Source of the DNA: Azonexus sp.
GTDB taxonomy: Bacteria; Pseudomonadota; Gammaproteobacteria; Burkholderiales; Rhodocyclaceae
Reading direction: 5' to 3'
DNA length: 64,000 nucleotides
NCBI RefSeq assembly: GCF_023150235.1
Contig: NZ_JAKLLH010000013.1
Coordinates: 1 to 64,000, forward strand
Part shown: positions 57,269-61,441 of the stretch, piece by piece
How positions within the stretch are numbered: the stretch's first letter is position 1
Layout: the number at the start of each line of letters is the position of its first letter
Translations under genes and position numbers: made by a program
The notes under the pieces: generated by a model
Told to the model about the DNA's origin: nothing
The model's database searches: none
What the model saw: the letters and a program-made list of their open reading frames with translations, nothing else

Positions 57269-57775
57269 TCAGCGGACGACGCCGCAGGCAATGCGCTTGC
57301 CGCTATTACCTTCGGGATGCGACATGTAGTCGTCGGGATCGGCGGTAATGATCAGGCTGAGGCCGATCACATCCTTCAGCAACAAGCCCTGCACCTCGGT
57401 GCTGTAATTGGCATTGCCCTTGCCATCGGCCAGCAGGTTGGGCAGGTCGCCAACATGATGTTCCGGCTTGTCGTAGTGGCCGTGACGCTTGCCGAGAGGG
57501 TTGTAATGCCCGCGCGCACTGCTGGCATCGGGTGCGCTGCAGTCGCCGAGCTCGTGCAGATGAATGCCGTGCTCGCCCGGCGTCAGATTGCGAGCGGTGA
57601 CTTCGATACGCAGCTTGTCCTCCCCCGTATCGGTAAAGCGGGCGCTGGCGCTGGCGCGGCTACCCGAGCGCGCCTGGAGTTCGGCGCTCGCATCCGGTTT
57701 GACGGGTTGCGAAACACAAGCCGACAACAGCAGCGACAAGCCGCCGAGCAGCAGGTAACTGGTACTTTTTTTCAT
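57269..57775 (-). CDS. sodC: Cu/Zn superoxide dismutase-like lipoprotein lacking one copper ligand
   Basis: This is a 168-residue lipoprotein: LSLLLSAC is a lipobox with Cys20. The SodC fold is clear: EHGIHLHELGDC gives His72 and His74, RGHYNP gives His90, KRHGHY and EHHVGDLPN give the zinc side, and GKRIACGVV the conserved disulfide end. At the place of the fourth copper ligand, where VVHAGPDDY is usual, it reads LIITADPDDY: Thr144 replaces His. It may be inactive as a dismutase or bind metal differently. ATG 57775 follows AAGGAG. Confidence 0.88.
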   Translation of the reverse strand: MKKSTSYLLLGGLSLLLSACVSQPVKPDASAELQARSGSRASASARFTDTGEDKLRIEVTARNLTPGEHGIHLHELGDCSAPDASSARGHYNPLGKRHGHYDKPEHHVGDLPNLLADGKGNANYSTEVQGLLLKDVIGLSLIITADPDDYMSHPEGNSGKRIACGVVR

Positions 57776-57966
57776 GGTTTTCTCCTTGTCTGTCAAAGCC
57801 CGGGCGACCCCCCGGCAAGGGCTGGAACATCCAGCTTCAAGGATACGCGACTCTTTCCCGCAGCGGCGCGCGACAAACTCCGCGGGCATTTGATGCCGGC
57901 TATTTGCTGCGCCGCAACATTACGGTAGTCTTGCGGGCTTAAACTTGCTCGAACTTGAGGAATATC

Positions 57967-60294
57967 ATGAGCGAAATCGATCTCAAACGTTTTTTCCTGG
58001 AACAGGTCAAGCTGTTTCAACATTGCCCCGCCGACATCGTCGAAAAAATCATCGACCAGTCCCGCCTATCTACTTTTGAGGGCAACGAAGCGATGCTCGA
58101 GACCGGCGACGACAGCCAGTATCTCGGCATCCTGATCGACGGCCATGCCGAAATTTCGGTCAGCGACAATACCGGCGCCCGCAGCGTCGTCGCCCAGCTC
58201 GGTGCCGGCGACGTCTTTGGCGTGATGTCGCTGCTCACCGGCGAGCGGATCGCCGCCGACGTGATCGCCGGCAACCGCTGTTTCGTGCTGCTGATCCCGC
58301 AGGATGTTTTCAACACCCACATCCTGACCACGCCCAAAGCGGTCGCCTATCTGTCGCGCCTGCTCACCGAGCGCATCCGCGCCATGAGCGCCAGCGAGGC
58401 CGAATCCACGGTCAACCACGGCAATCCGGCAAAATCGAGCGACCCCTATGCCCTGTCGCTGATCAACAACCGGCCAGGCAAGGTGGTGGCGCTCAATATC
58501 GGCCTCAGCCAGATCCACTTCGGCATCTACAACACCGCCGAGAGCGGCGCCGACGTGCATGGCATCATCGACCAGACCGAGCCGGAACTGGCCCGGATCA
58601 CGGTCCACGTCGGGCCACAGCAAAAAACCCTGGACTGGCCGCAATTCAAGCTCTCCGACCTGTTCAAGGTGATGGTCGAGGCGAGCCGCCTGCTCGGCCC
58701 GGCCTTCACCTTCCACCCGGAAGACGTCAGCGCCATCGGTCATCGCGTCGTGCATGGCGGCAACAAGTTCGCCAGCTCGGTGGTCGTCACCCCGGCGGTG
58801 ATGGCCGACATCGAGGAGTTGTCGGTCTTCGCACCGCTGCACAACCCGGCCAACCTCGCCGGCATCCGCGTCGCGCTCCAGGCCTTCCCCAGCGTTCCGC
58901 AGGTCGCCGTCTTCGATACCGCCTTCCACCAGACGCTGGCGCCCTATGCCTACCTCTACGGCCTGCCCTACGAGCTGTACAAGCAGCACGGGATCCGCCG
59001 CTACGGCTTCCACGGCACCTCACACCGCTATGTCTCGCTGAAATCGGCAGAAGTGCTGCAGCGCCCGCTCGGCGAGCTGGAAATCGTCTCCTGCCACCTC
59101 GGCATCGGGGCTTCGCTGTGCGCCATTGACCACGGCCGTTCGGTCGACACCACGATGGGGATGACCCCGACCGACGGTCTGATCATGCCCAGCCGCTCCG
59201 GCAGCATCGATCCGGCGGTGATGATCCACCTGATGGAAGAACACAAGATGTCGCCGGCCGATCTGTCGGCGCTGATCAACAGCGAGAGCGGCCTCAAGGG
59301 CATTTCCGGCATTTCCAGCCACATCGCCGAAATCGAAGCCGCCGCCGCCGAAGGCCATCACCGCGCATTGCTCGCGCACAAGGCCTTCTGCTACCAGGTG
59401 CGCAAGAACATCGGCGCCTACGTCGCAGCCATGGGCGGCATCGACGTCCTCGCCTTCACCGGCGACATCGGCGAAGGCAGCGCCACGGTGCGCAGCCTGG
59501 CCTGCCAGGGCCTCGGCTACATGGGGATCAAGCTCGACGAGGAAAAGAACCGCAACCTCGGGCCGGTCGACGGCTACGCGGTGATCTCGACCGACGATTC
59601 GCCGGTCAAGATCCTGGTCATCGCCAACGACGACGAACGCCTGGTCGCCTGGGAAACCCTGCGCGCCATCGAACGCAACCAACTGCTGCTCGAAGCCAAA
59701 GCCGAAGAAACGCCGGCGATCCCGGTTGAAATCTCGGCCCACCACGTGCATCTGGCGCAAGCCGACGTCGAAGCCCTGTTCGGCCCCGGCCACCAGCTGA
59801 CGCCAATGCACGAACTGTCGCAGCCCGGCCAGTACGCCTGCGAGGAAAAGGTGCACCTGGTCGGACCCAAGGGACGCATCGCCAACGTCCGCGTGCTCGG
59901 CCCGACGCGTAAGGAAACCCAGGTTGAAATCGCGATGACCGAGCAATTCAAGCTCGGCGTGCAGCCGCCGATCCGTCAGTCCGGCGACTTGGCCGGCACC
60001 CCGGGGATCACCCTCGAAGGCCCCTACGGCAGCACCACCATCGAGCGTGGCGTGATCTGCGCCCAGCGCCACATCCACATGTCGCCGGAAGACGCGATGC
60101 GTTTCCGCGTGCGCGACAACTACGTCGTCCGCGTCCGCGTCGAAGGCGAGCGCGAGCTGATCTTCGGCGACGTCGTGGTCCGCGTGAACCCGGCTTTCCG
60201 CCTGGCCATGCACATCGACACCGACGAAGGCAACGCCGGCAATATCCACACCGGCATGCTCGGCTACATCGAGGAAATCCAGAGCCGCGCCTGA
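57967..60294 (+). CDS. Fusion: cNMP-binding-like domain, acetate kinase, PduL phosphotransacylase
   Basis: This 775-residue protein has three parts. Residues about 5-140 form a cyclic-nucleotide-binding-like domain (FGVMSLLTGERIAADV: Arg94 kept, the usual Glu after FG replaced by Val86). Residues about 170-565 are acetate kinase: GHRVVHGG (Arg260), FDTAFH (Asp317), YGFHGTSH (His349), RSGSIDP (Arg410) and GDIGEG (Glu503) are kept. The N-terminal phosphate loop is altered (NIGLSQIH for NxGSSSxK). Residues about 585-775 are PduL-type phosphate acyltransferase (SAHHVHLAQ, AQRHIHMSPEDA). Together the two enzymes would convert acetyl-CoA, phosphate and ADP to acetate, ATP and CoA. ATG 57967 follows GAGGA. 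Confidence 0.92.
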   Translation: MSEIDLKRFFLEQVKLFQHCPADIVEKIIDQSRLSTFEGNEAMLETGDDSQYLGILIDGHAEISVSDNTGARSVVAQLGAGDVFGVMSLLTGERIAADVIAGNRCFVLLIPQDVFNTHILTTPKAVAYLSRLLTERIRAMSASEAESTVNHGNPAKSSDPYALSLINNRPGKVVALNIGLSQIHFGIYNTAESGADVHGIIDQTEPELARITVHVGPQQKTLDWPQFKLSDLFKVMVEASRLLGPAFTFHPEDVSAIGHRVVHGGNKFASSVVVTPAVMADIEELSVFAPLHNPANLAGIRVALQAFPSVPQVAVFDTAFHQTLAPYAYLYGLPYELYKQHGIRRYGFHGTSHRYVSLKSAEVLQRPLGELEIVSCHLGIGASLCAIDHGRSVDTTMGMTPTDGLIMPSRSGSIDPAVMIHLMEEHKMSPADLSALINSESGLKGISGISSHIAEIEAAAAEGHHRALLAHKAFCYQVRKNIGAYVAAMGGIDVLAFTGDIGEGSATVRSLACQGLGYMGIKLDEEKNRNLGPVDGYAVISTDDSPVKILVIANDDERLVAWETLRAIERNQLLLEAKAEETPAIPVEISAHHVHLAQADVEALFGPGHQLTPMHELSQPGQYACEEKVHLVGPKGRIANVRVLGPTRKETQVEIAMTEQFKLGVQPPIRQSGDLAGTPGITLEGPYGSTTIERGVICAQRHIHMSPEDAMRFRVRDNYVVRVRVEGERELIFGDVVVRVNPAFRLAMHIDTDEGNAGNIHTGMLGYIEEIQSRA

Positions 60295-61144: not shown

Positions 61145-61441
61145 ATGACTTACGAATTGCACAGCACCGAGGTGTTCGATGACTGGCTGACCGATCTGGA
61201 TGGCTCACTGCGGCGCCGCTTGGCGAACCGGCTGGCGCAGGTAGAGAGCGGCCATTTTGGCGACCACAAGGCGCTGGCAGCGGACCTGTTTGAGTTGCGC
61301 TGTTTTTTCGGTGGCGGACTGCGGCTGTATTTTACGCAGCGTGGAGAACGCATCGTGCTGTTGCTGGCCGGCGGCGACAAGTCGTCGCAAAGCGCCGATA
61401 TTGCCAGAGTCCGTGCGATGCTGGCTGATCTGGAGGATTGA
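61145..61441 (+). CDS. RelE/HigB-type toxin
   Basis: This is a 98-residue toxin of the addiction-module killer family (RelE/HigB superfamily). MTYELHSTEVFDDWLTDLD, LRRRLANRLAQVESGHFGDHK and FELRCFFGGGLRLYF are typical. It probably cleaves mRNA on the ribosome. It is followed after two bases by the antitoxin gene, the toxin-first order of HigBA-like systems. Confidence 0.9.
   Translation: MTYELHSTEVFDDWLTDLDGSLRRRLANRLAQVESGHFGDHKALAADLFELRCFFGGGLRLYFTQRGERIVLLLAGGDKSSQSADIARVRAMLADLED

Follow-up and report, generated by a model that had tools for sequence, protein, structure and literature searches.

The window analysed here, a stretch of 64,000 nucleotides from Azonexus sp., contains a gene that places a cyclic-nucleotide-binding-like (CNB) domain, an acetate kinase domain and a PduL domain on one chain, and whose kinase part has lost seven residues of the ATP and metal site while keeping those that line the acyl site. 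We think it probable, on the strength of the alignments, that the protein is a PduL enzyme joined to an acetate-kinase domain that is uncoupled from ATP and either binds or hydrolyses acetyl phosphate, with the CNB domain as a regulatory or assembly module.

The three-domain gene and its distribution

The gene is a single open frame with an ATG start, and its 775 residues make up three domains on one chain. Its features are listed below, with kinase residues numbered after the Methanosarcina AckA (Mt) given in brackets.

57967..60294, + strand: three-domain gene, 775 aa, stop included (domain profiles; one frame conserved in relatives)
58072..58314, + strand: CNB (cNMP-binding-like) domain, residues 36-116, phosphate cassette altered (profile and alignment)
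58480..59649, + strand: Acetate_kinase domain, residues 172-561, acyl-site residues retained and ATP-site residues replaced (profile, residue alignment)
58504..58518, + strand: PHOSPHATE1 replacements L180, Q182 and H184 (Mt S10, S12, K14; alignment)
59104..59106, + strand: PHOSPHATE2 replacement I380 (Mt N211; alignment)
59188..59190, + strand: LOOP3 replacement P408 (Mt G239; alignment)
59464..59466, + strand: ADENOSINE replacement D500 (Mt G331; alignment)
59632..59634, + strand: metal-site replacement D556 (Mt E384; alignment)
59722..60243, + strand: PduL/PTAC domain, residues 586-759, zinc ligands all kept (profile, alignment)
57957-57962, + strand: likely ribosome-binding sequence GAGGAA (from sequence)
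57903..57921, + strand: palindromic operator-like site TTTGYTGC-N3-GCARCAAA, two mismatches in the window (conservation upstream of relatives' fusions)

The order CNB, acetate kinase, PduL, which the first-pass annotation had read from the sequence, is borne out by three Pfam domains that score above cut-off in the one frame: cNMP_binding at residues 36-116 (E 9.5e-14; 51.6 bits against a cut-off of 27.5), Acetate_kinase at residues 172-561 (427.5 bits against 22) and PTAC/PduL at residues 586-759 (263.2 bits against 25), the last within the stretch, residues 585-775, where the first-pass annotation had called for such a match. The NCBIfam models for the ackA subfamily, TIGR00016 (409.9 against 293.4), and for phosphate propanoyltransferase, NF011652 (268.8 against 209), match as well.

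The fusion is conserved in a single group of bacteria from water and soil. It is present near full length, that is over at least 752 of the 775 residues in a single frame with no stop, in 69 of 199 relative genomes, the window's own included, and in pieces in two more of the 199, on two contigs in G035 and as a fragment in G063. Within the window's genus it is found in 67 of 76 genomes, the own genome and the pieces included. For residue-level comparisons we used the best 80 of 305 confirmed stretches, which correspond to 79 distinct named loci from, among others, Azonexus, Dechloromonas, Zoogloea, Thauera, Azoarcus, Parazoarcus and Rhodocyclus; the whole protein is spanned in 76 of these, and contig ends cut the other three (L063, L092, L109). 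One-frame copies in so many genomes and loci rule out a sequencing error or frameshift joining separate genes, so that the fusion is not an artefact of assembly and can be taken as the single gene it was first read to be. In one relative the fusion is interrupted within the kinase part by a shift of frame (L172:1468-3802), through either assembly error or decay, and Rhodocyclus purpureus carries two tandem copies (L101:3346-8319), with the ATP site lost in both.

Within the window's family, 117 of 395 genomes, belonging to 20 of 68 genera, have a match to PF06130; with frame length as the criterion, 91 of the 118 family-wide rows lie in frames of at least 770 aa and 27 in shorter ones. Across the order the count is 8 of 399 genomes, all of the window's family and all with frames of at least 777 aa, and across the phylum 7 of 398, made up of the own genome, three standalone proteins (211-216 aa) and three long frames. 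Among the relatives of genome G782 it is 6 of 198, and in the class of G782 it is 2 of 385, one of them below the cut-off. Other arrangements of the same parts exist. At six loci of one genus, g718 (L167-L170, L175, L176), ackA and pduL are separate neighbours and the ackA is canonical. AckA-PduL proteins that by length and alignment have no CNB domain are found on plasmids of Polaromonas, Sinorhizobium and Paracoccus and in three further genomes (L139-L141), the Sinorhizobium one being annotated as two genes with a broken frame. Finally, two genomes that share the window's phylum, though not its class, encode the three-domain form with a canonical kinase (L134, L138).

These last two proteins share the domain order of the window protein and, unlike the window clade, retain all seven ATP and metal residues. 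PduL-Ack fusion proteins, and channelling in them, had already been proposed (PLoS Biol 2016, PMC4784909); the likeness lies in having both domains on one chain, and section 11 of that paper mentions neither an N-terminal CNB domain nor a loss of ATP-site residues in the kinase, both of which are seen here. The earlier suggestion that no enzyme of this order had been described therefore stands in part: the PduL-Ack fusion is known, and neither the added CNB domain nor the altered kinase, that is no such three-domain protein and no acetate kinase without its ATP site, was found among the papers listed from the open-access literature.

The PduL part aligns without gaps to the PduL of Rhodopseudomonas palustris (PDB 5cuo) over 173 residues and shares all of its zinc ligands, although the latter is a separate chain of 202 residues and not part of a fusion. 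The published ligands H48, H50, E109, H157, H159 and H204 correspond to H593, H595, E654, H702, H704 and H749 in the window, and the phosphate-binding R103 to R648. Equivalents of H48, H50, E109, H157, H159 and R103 are kept in all 80 rows from the 79 loci, and that of H204 in all 79 rows with data; the place of the CoA-contacting K70 is taken by H in 72 rows and by S in 8. With the profile match and the zinc ligands kept, the phosphotransacylase part looks intact, as first proposed, and the window protein is probably a PduL-type phosphotransacylase.

The CNB domain presents a different picture. In CNB receptors a Glu and an Arg of the phosphate cassette are the marks of cyclic-nucleotide binding. 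Only 3 of the 79 rows with data have the Glu, which is replaced by Val in the window, and none of the 79 has the Arg at its canonical place, although in 62 of them an Arg stands at the position just before; the two canonical three-domain sister forms keep the Glu and have no Arg at the canonical place. Of the control by cyclic nucleotides that had been suggested, the CNB fold is upheld by its profile score, while the altered cassette makes binding of cyclic nucleotides doubtful.

Loss of ATP-site residues in the kinase-derived domain

In acetate kinases S10, S12, K14, N211, G239, G331 and E384 hold the ATP phosphates and the metal, and H123, D148, F179, H180 and H208 act on the acetate and transition-state side. 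Acetate-side roles have likewise been described for R91 and R241 (PMC6461089). Across the 80 rows the two groups of residues behave in opposite ways. The acetate and transition-state residues R91, H123, D148, F179, H180, H208 and R241 are kept in every row, as are V93 and P232 of the acyl pocket, with L122 in 76. The seven ATP and metal residues are kept in none of the rows, the window included, and the residues that replace them are themselves conserved (Q/R, H/R, mostly I/V, P and D/E). R285 is kept in 7 rows, and N7 and E385 in 78 each. As a control, 32 standalone AckA proteins have S10, S12, G239, G331 and E384 in 32 of 32 cases, K14 in 31 and N211 in 30, and all seven residues are canonical in the eight outgroup fusions (L134-L141; two three-domain and six two-domain).

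The same seven positions emerge from a scan that is blind to motifs and considers only columns that are invariant in nine outgroup rows, with at least seven of the nine filled (L136 was omitted for its broken frame). Of 83 such columns, those never kept in the window clade are exactly these seven; another 60 are retained in at least 98% of rows, and the remaining 16 are intermediate, among them N7 (78 of 80), D283 (60), I332 (43) and R285 (7). The 16 also include three columns with no tie to ATP in which similar residues have almost taken over: V549 (kept in 9 of 80 rows), L288 (2) and I560 (1).

Single mutations at N211, G239 and G331 lower the activity of the M. thermophila enzyme 6- to 200-fold and leave some activity, and the Ile, Pro and Asp replacements found here are not among the mutants in the part of that study covered here (PMC4390882); the metal-site mutant E385A of the P. 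gingivalis enzyme is reported as dead (PMC6461089). With seven changes combined at the ATP and metal site, ordinary ATP chemistry is unlikely, whereas weak or compensated use of ATP is conceivable, given that single mutants retain some activity and the exact replacements differ. The formation of ATP that had been ascribed to the kinase part finds no support in these residues, and we infer that the domain has lost its ATP chemistry.

One could also imagine that the domain has exchanged ATP for another phosphoryl partner, such as pyrophosphate or phosphate, as in the acetate kinase of Entamoeba, so that the fusion would make or spend PPi. The PPi-dependent enzyme of E. histolytica also departs from the ATP enzymes at the N211, G239 and G331 positions (PMC4390882), where it has Thr, Ser and Gln and the window clade has other residues, and an Asp at the G331 place is reported for four Anaerolineaceae AckA sequences whose donor is unknown (PMC5517563). 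However, the further features given for the PPi type in the latter paper, a PHOSPHATE2 loop extended with an extra Gly and an Asp at Mt 330, are both absent from the window clade: the loop has its ordinary length and the Mt 330 place holds Gly in 80 of 80 rows. With K14, S10, S12 and E384 lost too, and an acidic residue sitting in the phosphate site, we regard a switch of partner as unlikely.

The timing and tempo of the changes were followed in trees that combine outgroups with 21 rows, namely the window and 19 of the 79 named loci, Rhodocyclus being represented twice. In both the kinase and the PduL tree the window clade groups with the canonical three-domain forms L134 and L138 (support 100 and 99), and the simplest history is accordingly that the fusion came first and the ATP site was lost later, which suggests descent from an ATP-competent fusion. 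The stem branch of the clade measures 1.18 changes per column for the kinase against 0.13 for PduL, in a tree whose software warns of long branches. Identity between the window clade and the canonical three-domain forms is 53.9% for the kinase and 72.4% for PduL, compared with 69.6% and 77.6% between the two canonical forms themselves. There is a burst of change on the stem that is specific to the kinase, and the contrast is milder by plain identity than by the tree. Eight pairs, each including the window, gave dN/dS values of 0.08-0.34 (kinase), 0.02-0.12 (PduL) and 0.10-0.40 (CNB domain); being well under 1, they indicate that the kinase domain is still under selection. Recent decay of the kinase is ruled out by the fixation of the changes in the rows seen, the conserved replacements and the low dN/dS.

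The same observations bear on the notion that the kinase domain is an inert, ligand-free scaffold that merely holds PduL and CNB together. A lost ATP site, and the lack of a conserved gene partner hinting at a ligand in the crude survey described below, would fit such a role; invariant acetate-site residues, conserved replacements and dN/dS well under 1 would not, and we hold the scaffold to be rather improbable.

The upstream palindrome and neighbouring genes

The palindrome TTTGYTGC-N3-GCARCAAA begins about 67 bases upstream of the start codon. With up to three mismatches it is present in 70 of 77 upstream regions (the window and 76 of the 79 loci), 33 times perfectly, against 0.7 of 77 in dinucleotide shuffles, a count that is flattered because the consensus was drawn from the same regions. 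All 74 sites with up to four mismatches contain the core TGC-N3-GCA, which leaves three regions that lack a site of this kind. The window's own copy has two mismatches, and two matches in the window alone are not above chance. A perfect copy also stands upstream of a LysR-type regulator gene (L049:4809), and a similar site is seen at L053:4813.

When the 655 genes in 800 kb of a near relative are ranked by the score of the motif in front of them, isocitrate lyase comes third (L238:16503) and malate synthase, with the weaker site, eleventh (L239:2749). The fusion sites score 14.8-31.9; the 15.5 of isocitrate lyase is thus at the bottom of their range and the 12.1 of malate synthase beneath it, and some higher-scoring sites stand before other genes. 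Control of the fusion by acetate or glyoxylate metabolism, a link noticed after the fact, is a lead and no more. In another genus a standalone PduL gene adjoins malate synthase (L173), and the 300 bases that precede malate synthase there contain no palindrome. Other candidate signals were dropped: FNR-like boxes (15 of 77 against 4.1 in shuffles) are scattered in place and partly overlap the palindrome, and CRP-like boxes (7 of 77) are as frequent as in shuffles (6.6). RamB/ScfR was rejected as the palindrome's regulator on layout, the Paracoccus RamB motif consisting, as reported, of two near-identical boxes with an 18-base spacer (PMC10370305), unlike the palindrome.

No conserved operon partner was seen and neighbours vary, in a crude ORF survey that missed the fusion itself in 18 of 90 loci and whose negative result is for that reason weak. 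In the window, a gene at 57269-57889, presumably a Cu-Zn superoxide dismutase by resemblance, is divergent from the fusion, its longest frame starting about 78 bases from the fusion start, and a small ORF at 61145-61441 resembles what we take to be a RelE/HigB-type toxin of a toxin-antitoxin pair. Among the two-domain forms, one AckA-PduL gene is convergent with a phosphoketolase gene (L127:1-3360), which suggests use of AckA-PduL with acetyl phosphate from phosphoketolase; on the Polaromonas plasmid fabI, the AckA-PduL fusion and DUF3141 stand in a row (L135:5068-9462), and in Paracoccus a phasin gene lies near AckA-PduL. Apart from the fusion, the own genome encodes a canonical ackA that adjoins a gene with a Pta domain (profile positions 102-319 of 319), and two more Pta-domain genes lie elsewhere in it; both kinds of acetate kinase are present in 13 of 15 genus genomes, the own included.

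A possible role in acetyl phosphate metabolism

To the original proposal of a full bifunctional enzyme, which would convert acetyl-CoA to acetate and ATP on one chain with channelling of acetyl phosphate, we give little credence: both families are on one chain, channelling has been suggested for PduL-Ack fusions (PMC4784909) and eight outgroup fusions, two three-domain and six two-domain, have canonical kinase residues, but the seven ATP- and metal-site residues are missing in 80 of 80 rows, the kinase stem is accelerated and the genome has a canonical ackA of its own.

In the reading that we prefer, that of a PduL enzyme with an ATP-uncoupled kinase domain, the PduL part would interconvert acetyl-CoA (perhaps propionyl-CoA) and phosphate with acyl phosphate and CoA. 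The kinase-derived domain would no longer use ATP or ADP and would retain the pocket that grips the acetyl group; because the ATP residues are lost and the acetate-binding ones kept, its task is probably to handle or sense acetyl phosphate, with no ATP being made. Most likely it would bind acetyl phosphate, or acetate and phosphate, and binding of an acyl phosphate is what we infer from the conserved pocket. What follows from binding is a guess: the domain might be a sensor that tunes the PduL site, or a slow hydrolase that drains acetyl phosphate to acetate. The CNB-fold domain would be a further regulatory or assembly module and is probably not a classical cAMP receptor. The fuller proposal, a clade-wide pseudo-acetate-kinase that has lost its ATP half and kept its acetyl-phosphate half, acting as a PduL-linked sensor or acetyl-phosphate hydrolase and possibly co-expressed with the glyoxylate cycle, we put forward tentatively, as somewhat short of an even chance.

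The separate genes, the two-domain fusion, the three-domain form with an intact kinase and the form with the ATP site lost together offer a natural series for the evolution of a pseudoenzyme. If the hydrolase version were true, the protein would hydrolyse acetyl-CoA in two steps, without ATP and with recycling of the phosphate. Acetyl phosphate is at once a metabolic intermediate, a global signal and a protein-acetylating agent, and a producer of acetyl phosphate paired with a kinase relative that probably holds it and does not spend it would be a direct control device.
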